Positions 5,448-22,209 of a stretch of 64,000 nucleotides of DNA are shown here, in pieces (within the stretch, counting starts at the first letter, position 1; every line of letters begins with the position of its first letter). The stretch comes from Leisingera daeponensis DSM 23529 (GTDB lineage: Bacteria > Pseudomonadota > Alphaproteobacteria > Rhodobacterales > Rhodobacteraceae). The translations under genes and the position numbers were made by a program. The stretch covers positions 372,225-436,224 of the forward strand of contig NZ_KI421500.1 of the NCBI RefSeq assembly GCF_000473145.1, written 5' to 3'. The notes beneath the pieces are model-generated. The model saw only the letters and a list, made by a program, of their open reading frames with translations, was not told the origin of the DNA and did no database searches.

Positions 5448-5522
5448 TGGAGCGGGCGATGAGATTCGAACTCACGACCCTTACCTTGGCAAGGTAATGC
5501 TCTACCCCTGAGCTACGCCCGC
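5448..5522 (-). tRNA. tRNA-Gly (anticodon GCC), copy 1
   Basis: On the minus strand the acceptor arms GCGGGCG/CGCCCGC pair perfectly, the D arm reads GCTCAGGGGTAGAGC, the anticodon arm is TTACC-TTGCCAA-GGTAA and the T arm contains GTTCGAAT. The CCA end is encoded. The 75-base sequence is identical to the copies at 5668-5742 and 8324-8398. Confidence 0.97.
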
Positions 5523-5667: not shown

Positions 5668-5742
5668 TGGAGCGGGCGATGAGATTCGAACTCACGACCC
5701 TTACCTTGGCAAGGTAATGCTCTACCCCTGAGCTACGCCCGC
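5668..5742 (-). tRNA. tRNA-Gly (anticodon GCC), copy 2
   Basis: Identical in sequence to copy 1, including encoded CCA. It lies 145 bases upstream of copy 1 in the same direction, with its own promoter and terminator. Confidence 0.97.
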
Positions 5743-6246: not shown

Positions 6247-7133
6247 TTCACGGCATGTCCGGATTGTGCGGCCATGCGGGCATGATACTCGTTTTCGACC
6301 CGGCAGGAAATGAACTCGCCGCCGGCGCAGGGCGGCAGGTCCAGCGCCTTGATAAGCTGGCTGTCGTACTGGCCGGAGAGCAGCAGGATGCCGTCCCGGG
6401 CCAGCAGGTCCCGCGTGCCGCGCCCCTTGTCCGAGCGGATCCGGCGCATGAAGTCCTTCTGCTGCGCCACCGCCTCCACCACATCGCGCGGAACCGGGCG
6501 GCGCTGGATCAGCCGGAACAGCTGCGCCATGCGCTCGTTTCCGGTATCGCCCGCAAAGATCTGCTGGACTGCGGCCTCATCCGCGGTGCGCCAGAAGTTG
6601 GCGGGGTAGGGCTGATCTTTGAACAGCCACAGGATATGTCGGAAGCCCTCGGCAGAGATGCTGCGCTTGGCGTCCTTGTTCTGGCCTTGGGTCAGGTATG
6701 CGGGCCGGGCGACGATCAGGCCCAGGTAACAGCGCGCCCGCACCTCATCGGCGGCGACCAGCAGGCAGGCGCAGTCAATCGCCTCGGTAGGGATCATCCA
6801 GTTGCCGCCCATGGTGTGCTTGATGTCGACATCCCGGCCCAGAATCTCGGTATCCAGCCGCCCCTTGCGCAAGCGCAAGAGCGCCCGCAGTTCGATCTCC
6901 ACCCGGGTGCCGATATAGGTCTTTTCGGTTTTCTCCAGCTCTTCATACGCGCGCCGCCCGGTCTTGGGCGTCATGATCACATCATCAATGCACTGGCGCA
7001 GCATCTGCGGCACGTCATGTTCCAGCGCCAGCGCGCCGCCGGCACGGGTCGTGATCTCCTCCGCCAGCGGGAGGAGGGTGCCGAAGTCCGGATGGCCGGG
7101 AAGCACAAGGCTGTCGGGAAGTTTCAGTTTCAT
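6231..7133 (-). CDS. NaeI-like type II restriction endonuclease
   Basis: A 300-residue protein resembling NaeI, a type IIE enzyme that cuts GCCGGC after binding two sites and is related to topoisomerases. The four catalytic residues known for NaeI (Glu, Asp, Asp, Lys) can be placed at Glu79, Asp94, Asp103 and Lys105 (GRLDTE...DVDIKHT), with the same Asp-Asp and Asp-Lys spacings as in NaeI. The C-terminal half would be the DNA-binding allosteric domain. NaeI is about 317 residues. The gene sits between the methyltransferase and vsr. Family is inferred from motif pattern and context; the actual target sequence is not proven. Confidence 0.8.
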   Translation of the reverse strand: MKLKLPDSLVLPGHPDFGTLLPLAEEITTRAGGALALEHDVPQMLRQCIDDVIMTPKTGRRAYEELEKTEKTYIGTRVEIELRALLRLRKGRLDTEILGRDVDIKHTMGGNWMIPTEAIDCACLLVAADEVRARCYLGLIVARPAYLTQGQNKDAKRSISAEGFRHILWLFKDQPYPANFWRTADEAAVQQIFAGDTGNERMAQLFRLIQRRPVPRDVVEAVAQQKDFMRRIRSDKGRGTRDLLARDGILLLSGQYDSQLIKALDLPPCAGGEFISCRVENEYHARMAAQSGHAVKWPTS

Positions 7134-8323: not shown

Positions 8324-8398
8324 TGGAGCGGGCGATGAGATTCGAACTCACGACCCTTACCTTGGCAAGGTAATGCTCTACCCCTGAGCTACGCCCGC
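8324..8398 (-). tRNA. tRNA-Gly (anticodon GCC), copy 3
   Basis: Identical to copies 1 and 2. It lies immediately upstream of the restriction-modification island, whereas copies 2 and 1 lie downstream, so the island is bounded by tRNA-Gly genes in the same orientation. Confidence 0.97.
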
Positions 8399-16727: not shown

Positions 16728-16935
16728 TCAGATCACTTGCTACGACATGTTTCACCCCAGGGTTGCATGCAAGCCTTGCGGTTTTGTGAATCGGGCGGCC
16801 CTGAGCGGCGGAATTTCCCGCGAACACCTGTCAAATCCGCGCTTTCCCGGGGCTGGCGCCTGCAAACCGGACTCGTGTGAACAGAGTGTGAACGTCCTCT
16901 TTCCGCCGCCGCTGAATCACGCTAGGATCACGGCC

Positions 16936-19305
16936 ATGAGCAGTTTCGACGAAATGGACGCCTTTGAGGGCGCATCGCTGTCGGCCCGCGCCATGCAGGC
17001 GCGGCCGATGCCGTATCTGGACAGCCTCAACCCCGCTCAGCGGGAAGCGGTTGAATGCCTTGATGGTCCGGTCTTGATGCTGGCAGGTGCGGGCACCGGC
17101 AAGACCAAGGCGCTGACCACCCGCATCGTGCACCTCCTCAGCACCGGCCGGGCGCGCCCGAACGAGATTCTGTCGGTGACCTTCACCAACAAGGCCGCGC
17201 GCGAAATGAAGGAGCGGGTGGGCGCCCTGCTGGGCCAGGCGGTCGAGGGGATGCCGTGGCTCGGCACCTTCCACTCGATCTGCGTCAAGCTGCTGCGCCG
17301 CCATGCGGAACTGGCAGGGCTGAAATCAAACTTCACCATCCTCGACACCGACGACCAGATCCGCCTGCTCAAGCAGCTGATTCAGGCCGCGGGCATCGAC
17401 GACAAGCGCTGGCCCGCGCGGATGCTGGCCGGCATCATCGACGACTGGAAAAACCGCGCGCTGACGCCGGACAGGGTGCCTGCCGCCGATGCCGGCGCCT
17501 ACAACAACCGCGGTACCGGGTTCTATGCCCAGTACCAGACCCGCCTGCGCGAGCTGAACGCGGTCGATTTCGGCGATCTGCTGCTGCACATGGTGACGAT
17601 CTTCCAGAACCATCCGGACGTGCTGGAGCAGTACCAGCGCTGGTTCCGCTACATCATGGTGGACGAATACCAGGATACCAACGTCGCCCAGTACCTGTGG
17701 CTGCGGCTCTTGGCGGGCAAGCACAAGAACGTCTGCTGCGTCGGCGACGACGACCAGTCGATCTATGGCTGGCGCGGTGCCGAGGTCGGCAACATCCTGC
17801 GGTTCGAGAAAGATTTTCCCGGCGCCATGGTGGTGCGGCTGGAGCAGAACTACCGTTCCACCGGCCATATCCTTGCCGCCGCCGCGGGCGTCATCCGCGG
17901 CAACCAGGGCCGATTGGGCAAAGAGCTGTGGACCGAGGCCGGCGACGGCGAGAAGGTCCGCCTGATCGGCCATTGGGACGGCGAGGAAGAGGCCCGCTGG
18001 ATCGGCGAGGAGATCGAGGCGATGCAGCGCGGCACCCGGGGCCAGGCGCCGCTGGGGCTCGACCAGATGGCGATTCTGGTGCGCGCCTCCCACCAGATGC
18101 GCGCGTTCGAGGACCGCTTCCTGACTATCGGCCTGCCGTACCGGGTCATCGGCGGTCCGCGCTTTTACGAGCGGATGGAGATCCGCGACGCGATGGCCTA
18201 TTTCCGCATTGTGGTTTCCCCTGACGACGATCTGGCGTTTGAGCGCATCGTCAACACCCCAAAGCGCGGCCTCGGCGACAAGGCGCAGCAGACCATCCAG
18301 GGGCTGGCGCGCGAACATGGCGTCTCTCTGGTGGAGGGCGCGCGGATCGCGGTGGAAAGCGGCCAGATCAAGGGCAAGGGCGGCGGCGCCCTGCGCGAAC
18401 TGGCCGAGGGCATCGCCCGCTGGGGCCGCATGGCGGGCGATCCGGACATCACCCATATGGAGCTGGCCGAGATCATCCTGGACGAGTCCGGCTACACCGC
18501 CATGTGGCAGAACGACAAAACCCCGGAGGCCCCCGGCCGTCTGGAAAACCTCAAGGAACTGGTGAAGGCGCTGGAGTCGTTTGAGAACCTCCAGGGCTTC
18601 CTCGAACATGTCAGCCTGGTGATGGACAACGACAAGCAGGACGCGGACGAGAAGGTCTCGATCATGACCCTGCACGCGGCCAAGGGCCTGGAGTTCCCCG
18701 CCGTCTTCCTGCCGGGCTGGGAGGACGGCTTGTTCCCGTCGCAGCGCTCGATGGATGAAAGCGGCCTGAAAGGCTTGGAGGAAGAGCGCCGCCTTGCCTA
18801 TGTCGGCATCACCCGCGCCGAACAGATCTGCACCATCTCATTCGCCGGCAACCGCCGGGTGTTCGGCCAGTGGCAATCGCAGCTGCCCTCGCGGTTCATT
18901 GACGAGCTGCCGGAGGAGCATGTCGAGGTGCTGACCCCGCCGGGCCTTTATGGCGGCGGCTACGGCGCGGCGGCGCCCGGTGCCGCGATGGGGGCAGGGC
19001 AGGTGCGGTCCTCCATCGAGGAGAAGATGGCGCAGGCCGATGGCTACAACTCCCCCGGCTGGAAACGGATGCAGGCCCGCGCCGGCCAGCGCGGCCTGTC
19101 GCAGCCCAAGGAAAGCAAGCATCAGGTGATCGACCTGACCGCCACCTCCAGCTTCACTCTGGGAGAGCGCGTGTTCCACCAGAAGTTCGGCTATGGCGCT
19201 ATCACCGGCATCGAGGGCGACAAGCTGGAAGTGGATTTCGAAAAGGCCGGCACCAAGAAAGTGGTCGCCCGTTTCGTCTCAACCCCGGACGACGTTCCGT
19301 TCTGA
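16936..19305 (+). CDS. uvrD: UvrD/PcrA-type DNA helicase
   Basis: A 789-residue superfamily 1A 3'-5' helicase used in nucleotide excision and mismatch repair. The Walker A motif AGAGTGKT carries Lys56; motif II is MVDEYQDTN, motif III GDDDQSIYGWRGA, motif IV LEQNYRST, motif V MTLHAAKGLEF and motif VI YVGITRAEQ. The last 55 residues (HQVIDLTATSSFTLGERVFHQKFGYG...) match the Tudor-like RNA polymerase-binding tail of UvrD/PcrA. The ATG at 16936 follows a short divergent region shared with the GGDEF gene. Confidence 0.97.
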   Translation: MSSFDEMDAFEGASLSARAMQARPMPYLDSLNPAQREAVECLDGPVLMLAGAGTGKTKALTTRIVHLLSTGRARPNEILSVTFTNKAAREMKERVGALLGQAVEGMPWLGTFHSICVKLLRRHAELAGLKSNFTILDTDDQIRLLKQLIQAAGIDDKRWPARMLAGIIDDWKNRALTPDRVPAADAGAYNNRGTGFYAQYQTRLRELNAVDFGDLLLHMVTIFQNHPDVLEQYQRWFRYIMVDEYQDTNVAQYLWLRLLAGKHKNVCCVGDDDQSIYGWRGAEVGNILRFEKDFPGAMVVRLEQNYRSTGHILAAAAGVIRGNQGRLGKELWTEAGDGEKVRLIGHWDGEEEARWIGEEIEAMQRGTRGQAPLGLDQMAILVRASHQMRAFEDRFLTIGLPYRVIGGPRFYERMEIRDAMAYFRIVVSPDDDLAFERIVNTPKRGLGDKAQQTIQGLAREHGVSLVEGARIAVESGQIKGKGGGALRELAEGIARWGRMAGDPDITHMELAEIILDESGYTAMWQNDKTPEAPGRLENLKELVKALESFENLQGFLEHVSLVMDNDKQDADEKVSIMTLHAAKGLEFPAVFLPGWEDGLFPSQRSMDESGLKGLEEERRLAYVGITRAEQICTISFAGNRRVFGQWQSQLPSRFIDELPEEHVEVLTPPGLYGGGYGAAAPGAAMGAGQVRSSIEEKMAQADGYNSPGWKRMQARAGQRGLSQPKESKHQVIDLTATSSFTLGERVFHQKFGYGAITGIEGDKLEVDFEKAGTKKVVARFVSTPDDVPF

Positions 19306-19317
19306 TCAGCGCTTTGG

Positions 19318-19406
19318 CGCCGGCTGTGCCGGCGGATCGGATCGCAGGGCGATCCGATCCGGGCGCGGGGGCGGCGGGCAGCTCGGCTGCCCGCCGCCCC
19401 CGCGCC
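19318..19406. repeat. Three stacked perfect hairpins downstream of uvrD
   Basis: Three perfect inverted repeats stand almost back to back, each with a three-base spacer: 7 bp at 19318-19324 with 19328-19334, 12 bp at 19334-19345 with 19349-19360, and 21 bp at 19362-19382 with 19386-19406. Stem length rises with distance from the gene. No T-run follows. They may end uvrD transcription or protect the 3' end, and they also lie beyond the small RNA cluster that comes from the other side. Confidence 0.75.
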
Positions 19407-19523
19407 ACCCCCAGCCTCTGAGGAAAGCGCGGCAGCGGCAGGCCTTTTGCCTGGCTGCAGCCGTTTGCCTGCAGCATGCCTTCGGCACGCCGCGGGCCTT
19501 GATTTGATGTCCTGAAAAACAAG

Positions 19524-19563
19524 AAACGGCGGCGCCCAGGGAGGAGGAGGGGCACCGCCGTTC
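19524..19563 (-). ncRNA. CcsR-like small RNA hairpin 4
   Basis: Stem AACGGCGG/CCGCCGTT with further pairing; the minus-strand loop shows CCCCTCCTCCTCCCT. After the stem the minus strand continues TTCTTGTTTTTC, a likely terminator for the whole transcript. It is the last of four hairpins that share the loop motif. Confidence 0.7.
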
Positions 19564-19570
19564 TGTCAAA

Positions 19571-19602
19571 CACCAGGGAAAAGGGAGGAGGAGACCCTGG
19601 TG
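19571..19602 (-). ncRNA. CcsR-like small RNA hairpin 3
   Basis: Perfect 8-bp stem CACCAGGG/CCCTGGTG with the motif CTCCTCCTCCC in the minus-strand loop. See hairpin 1 for context. Confidence 0.75.
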
Positions 19603-19634
19603 ATCCAAACCCGGCTATTAGACCGGTATAGGGT

Positions 19635-19668
19635 GCGGCGGCATCAGGGAGGAGGAGGATGCCGCCGC
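19635..19668 (-). ncRNA. CcsR-like small RNA hairpin 2
   Basis: Perfect 10-bp stem GCGGCGGCAT/ATGCCGCCGC with the motif CCTCCTCCTCCC in the minus-strand loop. See hairpin 1 for context. Confidence 0.75.
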
Positions 19669-19674
19669 GTAGCA

Positions 19675-19708
19675 CAGGCTCTTCAAAGGGAGGAGGAGGA
19701 AGAGCCTG
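19675..19708 (-). ncRNA. CcsR-like small RNA hairpin 1
   Basis: Perfect 9-bp stem CAGGCTCTT/AAGAGCCTG whose minus-strand loop carries CCTCCTCCTCCC. Four such hairpins with unrelated stems but the same loop follow the DUF1127 gene. In Rhodobacter sphaeroides the same arrangement is known: CcsR1-4 (cuckoo RNAs), processed from a stress-induced transcript with the DUF1127 gene ccaF1, and using CCUCCUCCC as an anti-Shine-Dalgarno-like seed. Homology is inferred from motif, copy number and position. Confidence 0.8.
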
Positions 19709-19715
19709 ATCTCTA

Positions 19716-19925
19716 TCAGTTGTTCTCGTATGCGGCCTGGTAGGCGACGCGCTTGATTTCGCAGCGGCTCAGCCCCAGGTCCGCCAGCTCGCGGCCTGAC
19801 AGCGCCGACAGCTCATTGACGGTCTGGCGGTACAGGCGGTAGCGGGAGGCCTTCGCCAGCATCGCATTCAGGAAGCCGACCGGGGATGCCACGCTCACTG
19901 CGGAGATTTGATGTGCTGCAGCCAT
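19716..19925 (-). CDS. DUF1127 small protein, CcaF1-like
   Basis: A 69-residue basic protein with the DUF1127 arginine-rich helix pattern in its second half (YRLYRQTVNELSALSGRELADLGLSRCEIKRVAYQAA). In Rhodobacter the equivalent gene, ccaF1, encodes a small RNA-binding protein that affects maturation and turnover of the CcsR RNAs with which it is co-transcribed. Here it is followed at once by four CcsR-like hairpins, so the same role is likely. An AAGGA ribosome site precedes the ATG. A heat-shock sigma-type promoter candidate lies about 140 bases upstream. Confidence 0.88.
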   Translation of the reverse strand: MAAAHQISAVSVASPVGFLNAMLAKASRYRLYRQTVNELSALSGRELADLGLSRCEIKRVAYQAAYENN

Positions 19926-20067
19926 GGTTTCGTTCCTTCATCCAGCCGTTTCGTCATCTGCGTCTTGCGCCTCATTGGCGCCGCTTGAGCCATAATTTAG
20001 GGATCTCCCCAGAAGTCGCAATCCCGTGCTTCGTCAATGCTGCTATGCAGCATCTGCATGGGTGACG

Positions 20068-20094
20068 TATGGGTATGTAACTGGAATATGACAA
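20068..20094 (-). promoter_or_regulatory. Possible RpoH-type promoter for the DUF1127/CcsR transcript
   Basis: On the minus strand TTGTCA and CCCATA are separated by 15 bases, resembling the alphaproteobacterial RpoH pattern (CTTG-like -35, CCCAT-like -10). Known CcsR loci are RpoHI/RpoHII-controlled, which favours it. It implies a leader of about 135 bases. Reading by eye only. Confidence 0.4.
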
Positions 20095-20289: not shown

Positions 20290-21354
20290 ATGCCGGTCAC
20301 CCAGGATCAGATTCACGCAGTGCTGGAGCGGCTGGCCCTGCCGGATGGCGGCACGCTGGTTTCGCGCGACATGCTGCGGGCGCTGCGCATCGAGGGCAGC
20401 AGGGTCAGCTTCGTGATCGAGGCCCCGAGCCTTGAGATCGCCAAGCTGATGGAGCCGCTGCGCAAGGCGGCCGAGGCGGCGGTGCTCTCGCTTGACGGTG
20501 TCGAAGCCGTCTCCGCCGCGCTGACCGCCCACGCTCCGCAGCGGCCTGCGCCCAGCCTCAAGGTCGGCGGCCACCCGAAACCGCAGGCAGAGCCGCTGAA
20601 GCCCGCAGGCGTCAAGCGCATCCTGGCCATTGCCTCCGGCAAGGGCGGGGTGGGGAAGTCCACCGTGTCCTCCAACCTCGCCGTGGCGCTAGCCCGGCAG
20701 GGCCGCAAGGTCGGGCTGCTGGATGCCGATATCTACGGCCCCTCCCAGCCGCGGATGATGGGCGCCAAGGGCCGCCCCGCCAGCCCCGACGGCAAGACCA
20801 TCGAACCGCTGCATGCGCATGGCGTCACGCTGATGTCGATCGGCTTCATGCTGGAGGAGGGCAAGGCGGTGGTCTGGCGCGGCCCGATGCTGATGGGCGC
20901 GCTGCAGCAGATGCTGGGCCAGGTGAACTGGGGCGAGCTGGACGTGCTGATCGTCGACCTGCCGCCCGGCACCGGCGACGTGCAGCTGACGCTCTGCACC
21001 AAGGCGGAACTGTCCGGCGCCATCGTCGTTTCCACCCCGCAGGACGTGGCGCTGCTGGACGCGCGCAAGGCGCTGGACATGTTCAACACACTGAAGACCC
21101 CGGTTTTGGGGCTGATCGAGAACATGTCCTTCTTCACCTGCCCGGACTGCGGCGGCGAGCATCACATCTTCGGCCACGGCGGTGTTGCGGCTGAGGCCGA
21201 GGCTCTGGGCCTGCCGCTCCTGGGCGCGCTGCCGATTGATCTGGAGACCCGGCTGGCGGGCGACAGCGGCACCCCCGTCGCGGCAGGGGAGGGGCCGATG
21301 GCCCAGGCCTATGCCCGGATCGCGGAGGGGCTGGTTCGGGGCGGCATGGCCTGA
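20290..21354 (+). CDS. mrp: Mrp/ApbC/NBP35-type iron-sulfur carrier ATPase
   Basis: A 354-residue P-loop ATPase that carries and inserts Fe-S clusters. Residues 1-80 are a MIP18/DUF59 domain; the ATPase follows from about 108, with the deviant Walker [10 protein letters not shown] (Lys118 and Lys123), [12 protein letters not shown], and DLPPGTGD. The cluster-binding CxxC is in [10 protein letters not shown] ribosome site AGGAG is about ten bases before the ATG. It is followed by a terminator and then the long dcw leader, so it is not part of dcw. Confidence 0.95.
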
Positions 21355-21409
21355 GGCCCTGCGGGCACGCACGTATTCTCTCTAATATATGATGGCACCT
21401 TGCACCGGA

Positions 21410-21434
21410 TGGCCCGCCCCTGTGGCGGGCCTTC
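21410..21434 (+). terminator. Terminator of mrp
   Basis: Perfect 8-bp stem GGCCCGCC/GGCGGGCC with loop CCTGT followed by TTCT. It separates mrp from the dcw leader. Confidence 0.65.
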
Positions 21435-21454
21435 TGCTGCCGGCGGCCCGCACA

Positions 21455-21607
21455 TGGGCGCTGATGGGACAGGCTGCCGGTCCTGGGACCGGATGGGGCA
21501 GGCCGCCCGGGACACCGGCCCGCGGGGCGCGCGGGATCCCATGGGAACGCTGGGAATTCACGGGACCTGCGGGAAATCATGGGCGCCATGGGAAATCATG
21601 GCCCTTT
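21455..21607 (+). promoter_or_regulatory. Array of MraZ-type boxes upstream of dcw
   Basis: YGGGN pentamers recur in phase. From 21532 they start at 21532, 21542, 21551, 21561, 21570, 21580, 21589 and (TGGCC) 21599, with steps alternating 10 and 9 bases, which makes four 19-base units. Boxes in the same phase also occur at 21455, 21465, 21484, 21494 and 21523. In E. coli MraZ binds TGGGN repeats set 10 bases apart before mraZ. Assignment as a MraZ operator is inference from motif and place. Confidence 0.6.
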
Positions 21608-21623
21608 TCTCCATCCATTTCCT

Positions 21624-21663
21624 CTTGCCAGCACGAATCACCCCGTGCTGAAACGCTGGCAAG
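21624..21663 (+). other. Compound hairpin in the dcw leader
   Basis: A 9-bp outer stem (CTTGCCAGC at 21624-21632 with GCTGGCAAG at 21655-21663) encloses an alternative inner pairing AGCACG/CGTGCT that uses some of the same bases. It could be a leader RNA structure or a DNA inverted repeat. Confidence 0.45.
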
Positions 21664-21877
21664 GAGAATTTCTGGTGCAAAGGCGCGGGCTGATTTGAGA
21701 ACGTTAGGGGAACATCAGTGAAATCTGCGAGTCTCTCGCCGGAATCGCGGGAAACTATGGGAAAAAAATTGCAGCCGCAACTCCCCTCTACATGTAGTGT
21801 TTGTTTCTGGTTTTCTCACAACAAGTTCCGAATTTGGCCCTGAGTAGACCGCGAATCTGGGCCGAATCTGCGGATTC
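21635..21877. promoter_or_regulatory. Cluster of six GANTC (CcrM-type) sites
   Basis: GANTC occurs at 21635, 21729, 21742, 21853, 21864 and 21873. At this GC content about one would be expected in 243 bases. In alphaproteobacteria CcrM methylates GANTC, and GcrA uses methylated sites in promoters of division genes. The sites are certain; their use is inferred. Confidence 0.55.
21748..21762 (+). promoter_or_regulatory. MraZ-type box pair
   Basis: CGGGA at 21748 and TGGGA at 21758, spaced exactly 10 bases as in the E. coli mraZ operator. It stands apart from the large array. Confidence 0.45.
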
Positions 21878-21913
21878 TCTGTCAAGAGCTTGGCGGTATT
21901 GGGCAGAAAACAG

Positions 21914-21944
21914 TTGCAGGGCCATCAATTCCCATAGTATCCCT
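21914..21944 (+). promoter_or_regulatory. Candidate dcw promoter with inverted MraZ-type boxes
   Basis: TTGCAG at 21914 and TATCCC at 21938 are spaced 18 bases. Over the -10 area lie TCCCA (21930) and TCCCT (21940), the reverse complement of two boxes 10 bases apart, so a repressor bound there would block the polymerase. Start would be near 21950. This is a reading by eye; promoters further upstream in the leader are possible. Confidence 0.35.
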
Positions 21945-21949
21945 ATTTC

Positions 21950-22160
21950 ATCAGATGAGACGAGGGACGGGGCGCCAAACGACCCCAAGCCGAAAAAACA
22001 AAACAAGCAGGTTTCATACAGGCCTTCGCTTTCATCGAACCAAGAGATCCGGCGCGCGAGCGAGCAGACATCCCCCCAGGTGGCGCGTGCAGTCGGACAT
22101 CCCGCAAAGCGGGCCAAGGCGGCGGGTTGATCAGTGGCAGCAGATCAACCCGCCCCTTTT
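21950..22160 (+). ncRNA. UpsM-like leader RNA of the dcw operon
   Basis: The stretch before mraZ is long, lower in GC than its surroundings and ends in a strong intrinsic terminator at 22121-22160, about 50 bases before the mraZ start. In Rhodobacter sphaeroides the dcw cluster has an extended leader from which an abundant RNA of about 200 bases, UpsM, is released. A transcript from the candidate promoter to this terminator would be about 210 bases. The 5' end is a guess. Confidence 0.5.
22121..22160 (+). terminator. Intrinsic terminator in the mraZ leader
   Basis: Perfect 12-bp stem GGCGGGTTGATC/GATCAACCCGCC (22121-22132 with 22143-22154), 10-base loop, then CCTTTT. It lies inside the transcription unit of dcw, so it should attenuate or create a short RNA. 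Confidence 0.85.
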
Positions 22161-22209
22161 CATTCTGGGGGACGGATTAACGCGAGGGACGCGCGAAAAG
22201 GACGGGAAA

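Follow-up and report, generated by a model that had tools for sequence, protein, structure and literature searches.

Hairpins that display a CCUCCUCCC loop on variable stems were described in 2011 (PMC3927594), among them the Rhizobiales families RFMSmelA075 and RFMSmelA099, with three and four hairpins, one of which was reported to be stress-induced; the word DUF1127 is absent from the text of that paper. The association of such hairpins with a DUF1127 gene is the mark of the CIN1 locus (PMC10253847) of Rhodobacter sphaeroides (RF02791, ‘cuckoo RNA’). There, ccaF1 and the CcsR RNAs are reported to be co-transcribed from an RpoHI/RpoHII promoter and their transcript to be processed by RNase E (PMC10253847, PMC3320616), with CcsR1-4 arising from the ccaF1 3′ UTR (PMC8625941). 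Stress induces CcsR1-4, which are cleaved by RNase E and have been linked both to C1 metabolism and to pyruvate dehydrogenase (PMC8625941, PMC7074977). In Sinorhizobium, the three CCUCCUCCC loops of ar14/NfeR1 (RF02344) silence ntrB at its initiation region, an effect that is lost when all three are mutated (PMC10746234). NfeR1 was reported to be Hfq-independent (PMC10746234) and CcsR1-4 to be Hfq-dependent (PMC7866481).

The locus analyzed here lies in a 64,000-nucleotide stretch of the Leisingera daeponensis DSM 23529 genome (the window) and belongs to this already known kind of stress locus. As in CIN1, a DUF1127 gene is followed by adjacent hairpins, each with a CCUCCUCCC loop and with stems that vary from one hairpin to the next, a putative RpoH-like promoter lies ahead and a likely terminator stands at the end. 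Unlike CIN1, as judged by published descriptions, it probably comprises two units where R. sphaeroides has four RNAs, it falls below the RF02791 gathering score and its −10 element has diverged. With ar14/NfeR1 it shares identical CCUCCUCCC loops on varied stems and a TGCA-N6-GCAT sequence at a similar position upstream of the promoter; it differs in having four hairpins rather than three, and NfeR1 has its own sigma70 promoter, with no DUF1127 gene mentioned in the available passages of PMC10746234. RFMSmelA075 and RFMSmelA099 share the loops and the variable stems and are set apart by their occurrence in Rhizobiales. The described stress-RNA family is thus extended to the Leisingera group, together with a comparative set. 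A pairwise grammar of the arrays, a conserved upstream box at CIN1 loci and a plasmid-borne unit were not found in the literature searched, the primary papers excepted, and may be in print; the available passages of a Paracoccus sRNA paper hold nothing on CcsR.

Results

A DUF1127 gene followed by four hairpins

A CcaF1-like small protein of 69 residues is encoded on the minus strand at 19716..19925 (Pfam PF06568, E 2.7e-14), directly upstream of the hairpin array and on the same strand. The protein has a match in all 21 Leisingera genomes searched and, at E<=1e-10, in 33 of the 149 genomes of a Rhodobacteraceae sample, its own genome among them; the protein evolves fast. Three of the 33 genomes have no new locus to read, and the others, the own genome aside, supply the 29 family loci used below. 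At least four hairpins are found in 27 of these and one in L099; L093 also has an array.

The array itself (19524..19708, minus strand) consists of four hairpins with CUCCUCCUCCCU in each loop, CTCCTCCTCCCT being present in all four, and four hairpins recur in 21 of 21 Leisingera loci. Its odd members are weak: H1 (19675..19708, motif 19688-19696) has the stem CAGGCTCTTC and H3 (19571..19602, motif 19583-19591) the stem CACCAGGG. The even members are strong: H2 (19635..19668, motif 19647-19655) has the stem GCGGCGGCATC and shares a CGGCGG core with H4 (19524..19563, motif 19539-19547; all minus strand). H4, whose far end lies 192 bases past the DUF1127 gene, is followed by a T-rich tail at about 19510-19523, with which it likely forms a Rho-independent terminator. 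The 221-nt strand has a predicted folding energy of −99.3 kcal/mol, compared with −62.6 ± 4.7 for 200 shuffles (z −7.8).

The evidence for the array is in the clustering of its parts, not in the motif or in single stems. CCTCCTCCC occurs five times in the 64 kb against 0.8 expected, a number reached by none of 100 shuffles, and four of the five sites fall in the array; the fifth (7069-7077) is not among the 20 best-scoring hairpins listed. Genome-wide, CCTCCTCCC shows no enrichment (56 sites against 68 for the reversed control pattern), and the motif alone was rejected as evidence on that ground. Single-hairpin statistics are weak proof as well: H3 scores 22 and H1 26 on a null distribution with its 95% point at 19, its 99% point at 24 and its maximum at 47, so that H3 lies between the two points, and an unrelated genome site (L074) scores 30 as a single hairpin.

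In an alignment of the 21 Leisingera loci, the nine-base motifs are identical throughout (identity 1.000, 36 of 36 columns invariant), while identity is 0.917 in the stems, 0.852 at other loop bases, 0.847 in the spacers and 0.467 in the tail. The four stems are paired in 98.0% of cells. Two-sided changes are found at seven pairs, compared with a mean of 3.4 in shuffled alignments, of which 3 in 500 reach seven; sliding the structure along the alignment gives one or two such pairs, and at most two. We give more weight to the slid control because related sequences can beat such shuffles without any structure. Counts of further pair types in the same 21 loci (18, with 16.2 expected by chance; 63 of 500 shuffles) are not above chance. 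The stems are thus conserved and, with compensatory changes present, look selected for pairing. They are position-specific across genera, and they vary among the hairpins of one locus and not freely among species.

These results bear on a sequence-only reading of the window, which had described a DUF1127 gene followed by four hairpins with a shared loop motif. Pfam, the predicted fold and the motif cluster confirm that arrangement. The same reading called the stems unrelated, a description that fails for H2 and H4, whose common core is part of an odd/even pattern seen in relatives, and perfectly paired, which is right only if wobble is allowed, the H4 stem including one G-U pair. Its contrast of divergent stems with conserved loops is borne out between the hairpins of one locus and contradicted between species, where the stems are 91.7% identical across the 21 Leisingera. 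It had also named conservation of stems rather than loops as evidence against itself; the stems are conserved and the loops, in every one of the 36 motif columns, are too, which leaves the reading standing.

Two probable CcsR-type units

At gathering scores, an Rfam search gave no match to the array, and CcsR1 appeared only in a permissive search. The CcsR1 model (RF02791) has 83 positions and two hairpins, and its whole length is matched twice in the window. Unit 1 (H1 and H2; 19630..19717, minus strand) matches model positions 1-83 with 43.5 bits (E 1.1e-9) and unit 2 (H3 and H4; 19521..19610, minus strand) the same positions with 39.1 bits (E 2.2e-8), both short of the gathering score of 65.3; at whole-genome scale the E-values are 4.4e-9 and 8.5e-8. 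The ar14 model (RF02344) matches the array once, with 40.5 bits against a gathering score of 58.8. RS0680a of R. sphaeroides was described with two stem loops (PMC3927594) and is co-transcribed with RSP_6037, which is ccaF1 (PMC3320616). Given two matches to a model of two hairpins, and two stem loops in RS0680a, the array probably corresponds to two two-hairpin CcsR-type RNAs and not four, if processing is as in R. sphaeroides.

At E<=1e-4, RF02791 matches 312 of 394 sampled family genomes, 17 of them above the gathering score and 295 below it, and none of 14 control genomes. At the loose threshold of E<=0.1, five of the 14 controls match too, and weak RF02791 matches therefore mean little. 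The cut-off is narrower than the locus type in print and was therefore not used to define the locus; falling below it is still a miss. The covariance models had been proposed as a check by the sequence-only reading: CcsR1 is matched twice, and both matches stay below gathering. That reading’s identification of a CcaF1/CcsR-type (CIN1) locus is supported by the sub-gathering CcsR1 and ar14 matches together with the structure, the neighbors and the RpoH-like promoter; its equation of the four hairpins with CcsR1-4 is probably wrong, given the two-hairpin model and RS0680a.

Arrays in relatives appear to be built from hairpin pairs

The comparison with relatives used named loci, of which 337 were found and the best 80 kept; 13 of these 80 are Leisingera-type and largely from the same genomes as the 21 above. 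Hairpin numbers among these best 80 of 337 are three in one locus, four in 30, five in four, six in 28, seven in one, eight in 13, nine in one and ten in two, counts that depend on the score threshold and a 900-base limit, with L187 and L190 near a contig end. The number is even in 73 of the 80, and in 60 of 67 when the 13 Leisingera-type loci are set aside. Within the same best 80 of 337, weak and strong stems alternate, 212 of 222 pairs having their stronger hairpin in the even position. A GCGG-type core occurs in 209 of 222 even stems and 10 of 229 odd stems of these loci, and their median distance from motif to motif is 42 within pairs and 66 between pairs. The full CCTCCTCCC is carried by 410 of the 451 hairpins, the finder itself having sought CTCCTCC or CCTCCC. 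Eight loci were also fetched from the 17 genomes above the RF02791 cut-off; they mostly keep the same beat, which L230, L231 and L232 break in places.

In L226 the beat is 39/75, and a single pair recurs almost without change at intervals of about 114 bases. This locus, with 14 motifs, several of them in units of that length that are nearly identical, and L271, with 16 motifs, have the extreme arrays. Arrays appear to grow by hairpin pairs, and the comparative set suggests the pair as the unit of the family. A Leisingera-type locus with a 72% identical protein and four hairpins also stands on a contig titled Nocardioides marinus (L123), probably a mislabeled record.

The neighborhood is also shared. 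A divergent gene for an Mrp/NUBPL-type ATPase (20290..21354, plus strand; Pfam PF10609, start inferred) and a convergent gene for a UvrD-type helicase (16747..19305, plus strand; Pfam PF00580/PF13361, the true start possibly lying inside) flank the locus as conserved neighbors. Mrp and/or UvrD adjoins 79 of the 80 named loci (best 80 of 337; UvrD 74, Mrp 39, both 34, counts limited by 3 kb flanks) and 28 of the 29 family loci; among the eight over-cut-off loci, Mrp is found in all and UvrD in seven. By eye, a very GC-rich inverted repeat is seen at about 19362-19402 between the array and the helicase gene, and is perhaps the terminator of the latter.

A two-hairpin unit on a plasmid-like contig

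The genome holds two further motif hairpins, here without a DUF1127 gene, on contig C5 (174 kb, with matches that make it look like a plasmid; L031:1952-2022, G000:C5:9751-9821, minus strand). They have a promoter-like ATTGTGCGATTGCAGCA...CTATCTT of their own and a T-rich stretch after the second hairpin; the promoter box is present, with no clear TGCA-N6-GCAT. Both Rfam matches are below cut-off, at 44.6 bits for ar14 (E 3.7e-7) and 24.8 bits for CcsR1 (E 5.2e-4, 0.0014 at genome scale). The unit is matched by 21 plasmid records from Sulfitobacter, Phaeobacter, Thioclava, Ruegeria and others, 15 of them typed as mobilizable. In the two records examined it is unannotated and lies between a hypothetical gene and a strawberry-notch-type gene.

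An RpoH-like promoter and an upstream TGC-rich box

The putative RpoH-like promoter (19995..20021, minus strand) consists of TTG (20021-20019) and CCTAAAT (20001-19995) and is conserved in Leisingera: all 21 loci have CGGGATTG followed at −10 distance by TAAATT (20 loci) or TAGATT (one). TTG is retained in Leisingera, where the −10, CCTAAATT in the window, has diverged from the CCTATNTT or CCCATNTT-like forms of relatives. The common form in relatives is ATTGTGCA-N3-GCAGCA-N4-CCTATNTT, a consensus of 99 loci with a TTG-GC-N4-GCAGCA element. TTGTGC-N4-GCAGCA lies upstream in 66 of 67 non-Leisingera and 7 of 13 Leisingera-type named loci (best 80 of 337) and in 26 of 29 family loci, and about zero times in mononucleotide shuffles; the GCAGCA element is lost in the window itself. 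An exact CTATNT stands at the right distance in 40 of the 80 named loci (best 80 of 337) and 8 of the 29 family loci, and a C-CATNTT form in all eight over-cut-off loci. A promoter pattern built from the window’s own sequence was discarded: it found 0 of 67 relatives, and a looser form 31 of 67, because many relatives have another spacer and −10. In sequence, the relatives’ forms fit the RpoHI/RpoHII logos, which place TTG at −36 to −34 (PMC3441632), and the published ccaF1-CcsR promoter.

A TGCA-N6-GCAT box (TGCAGATGCTGCAT; 20045..20058, minus strand) lies 37 bases upstream of TTG and is conserved in relatives. It is found in 21 of 21 Leisingera loci, 78 of the 80 named loci (best 80 of 337), 26 of 29 family loci and five of the eight over-cut-off loci, where the match is exact; mononucleotide shuffles give a mean of 0.1-0.4 and never more than 3. 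Where the −35 element is present, the box starts 37 bases before TTG in 73 cases and 36 in 12. Overlapping the box is a palindrome, ATGCTGCATAGCAGCAT (20037..20053, minus strand); the genome has three exact TGCTGCATNGCAGCA sites, this being one. The palindrome core, GCNGCATAGC, is less widespread than the box, with 70 of the best 80 of 337 named loci and 13 of 29 family loci carrying it. The exact 16-mer TTGCTGCATAGCAGCA, from which the window palindrome differs in its first base, occurs once each in 20 of 149 family genomes, the window’s site not among them, and its reversed control in none. Of the 20 sites, 17 precede a CCTCCTCCC array and two are close to a different DUF1127 gene, in one case in our own genome; the last has neither nearby. 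A shorter 13-mer occurs at 16 sites spread over 11 of the 21 Leisingera genomes, eight at arrays, three at a second DUF1127 gene and five at neither. For six of the 17 TTGCTGCATAGCAGCA-linked arrays, tblastn found no DUF1127 gene; in L267, L273 and L276 the first motif follows the box by 108-116 bases, leaving no room for one.

Two other palindrome sites in the genome were noted. A second DUF1127 gene (L237:1201-1615, G000:C2 near 2953240; Pfam E 9.2e-13) is divergent from a proteasome-family (hslV-like) gene, and the intergenic region that they share contains TGCTGCATAGCAGCA. The third exact palindrome (TTGCTGCATTGCAGCAA; L236:1501-1515) lies about 100 bases ahead of a short, unassigned reading frame on the minus strand.

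In NfeR1, TGCA-N6-GCAT at −72 to −60 was identified by gel shift and mutation as the site of LsrB (PMC10746234). If TTG marks −36, the window box lies at about −73 to −60 and so resembles that site in both sequence and position, a parallel drawn here. The box might instead be an operator of PhaR, the regulator of PHB metabolism, and not of a LysR-type, LsrB-like factor, a question of regulation that leaves any reading of the array untouched. In favor of PhaR, the Paracoccus and R. sphaeroides proteins bind repeats rich in TGC (PMC10888616), and in S. meliloti the protein acts as repressor of an sRNA, with palindromes on both sides of the −35 in phaP promoters (PMC12542648). We nevertheless consider PhaR possible but doubtful: one position of the window palindrome (TGCATAGCA) departs from the core YGCRNYGCR of the S. 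meliloti PhaR consensus, the region upstream of phaR in this genome has TGCTGCGATGCG and not the full palindrome, and TGCA-N6-GCAT and its distance from the promoter resemble the LsrB site of NfeR1. PhaR was rejected as the sure owner of the palindrome and is kept as the main rival only.

We tentatively propose, as an idea that we hold to be somewhat improbable, that all Rhodobacteraceae arrays of CcsR-type anti-Shine-Dalgarno loops, whether DUF1127-linked, stand-alone or plasmid-borne, may form one regulon, with an LysR-type, LsrB-like factor at the putative TGCA-N6-GCAT site 36-37 bases upstream of an RpoH promoter and with strength tuned by amplification of the two-hairpin unit. The three over-cut-off loci without an exact box and the plasmid copy without a clear one argue against it. 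If true, a single regulon would join redox/nutrient sensing to the heat/singlet-oxygen response, as NfeR1 in rhizobia. The promoter signature offers a concrete, testable link between the regulation of CcsR and that of NfeR1.

Discussion

With high confidence, we read the locus as a stress locus of the CIN1/CcsR type whose transcript, started at an RpoH-like promoter, would carry DUF1127 and two tandem two-hairpin sRNA units with anti-Shine-Dalgarno loops. The gene, the predicted fold, covariation, Rfam similarity, synteny and promoter conservation support this reading; transcription, processing, protein-RNA contact, targets and the stress signal are what we infer for Leisingera. One transcript, probably also under the control of a factor binding the upstream TGC-rich box, would encode the small DUF1127 protein and hold the two units in its 3′ UTR, from which, on the model of R. 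sphaeroides, RNase E together with the DUF1127 protein would release the sRNAs. Each hairpin would expose, in single-stranded form, a CUCCUCCUCCCU loop that copies the anti-Shine-Dalgarno sequence, and the loops would pair with GGAGG-type ribosome-binding sites, which under stress would repress a set of mRNAs at the level of translation. The role of the stems would be to keep the loops open and to shield the RNA; H4 would in addition end the transcript. By the NfeR1 work, GGAGGAGG sites are plausible targets of the loops.

Several points tell against this explanation. Neither Rfam family is reached at its gathering score, one covariation measure is at chance level, the window −10 (CCTAAATT) resembles an RpoH promoter less closely than do CCTATNTT or CCCATNTT in relatives, and DUF1127 proteins may act by protein contacts instead (PMC12501420). 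The locus also raises the question of how a bare anti-Shine-Dalgarno loop picks its targets among all Shine-Dalgarno sequences, which weighs against the reading. Searching our genome for GGGAGGAGG-N2-9-ATG gave 11 places against three for the reversed control; two of the 11 are the antisense of arrays and two are one site counted twice. Candidate targets, named by eye from their sequences, are an MnhE-like membrane protein, a UspA-like protein and a DctQ-like TRAP subunit.

Repeated identical loops on different stems are also the architecture of CsrB and RsmZ, which act as protein sponges. The chief rival to the anti-Shine-Dalgarno mechanism is accordingly that the array mainly titrates an RNA-binding protein, the DUF1127 protein or another binder of C-rich loops, and not mRNAs. 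Its many identical loops on varied stems are what a sponge would show, loop number varies widely and grows by pairs, stand-alone units having two and L271 16 motifs, as would be expected of loop dosage, and CcaF1 has been reported to bind RNA and promote CcsR maturation (PMC10253847). We nonetheless think a sponge unlikely, since loop mutation in the sister family ar14 abolishes silencing of an mRNA reporter (PMC10746234), RNase E cuts the units apart in R. sphaeroides (PMC8625941, PMC7866481), which a sponge would not need, and arrays exist where our search found no DUF1127 gene. That the hairpins are purely structural, stabilizing and terminating the 3′ end of the mRNA, with the loop motif a by-product of hairpin duplication, is far less likely still. 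H4 does look like a good terminator and some genomes duplicate hairpins as pairs with little change, yet such a by-product sits badly with 36 of 36 invariant motif columns in the 21 Leisingera, where other loop bases are 85.2% and stems 91.7% identical, and with the retention of the full CCTCCTCCC in 410 of 451 hairpins of the best 80 of 337 named loci, found by a search for CTCCTCC or CCTCCC.

Elsewhere in the window, a long leader (about 21355-22205) is seen by eye ahead of a gene pair resembling mraZ and rsmH; in R. sphaeroides the sRNA UpsM derives from the mraZ/dcw 5′ UTR (PMC8625941, PMC7866481). The window also contains three tRNA-Gly(GCC) genes with equal Rfam scores, at 5448-5522, 5668-5742 and 8324-8398.
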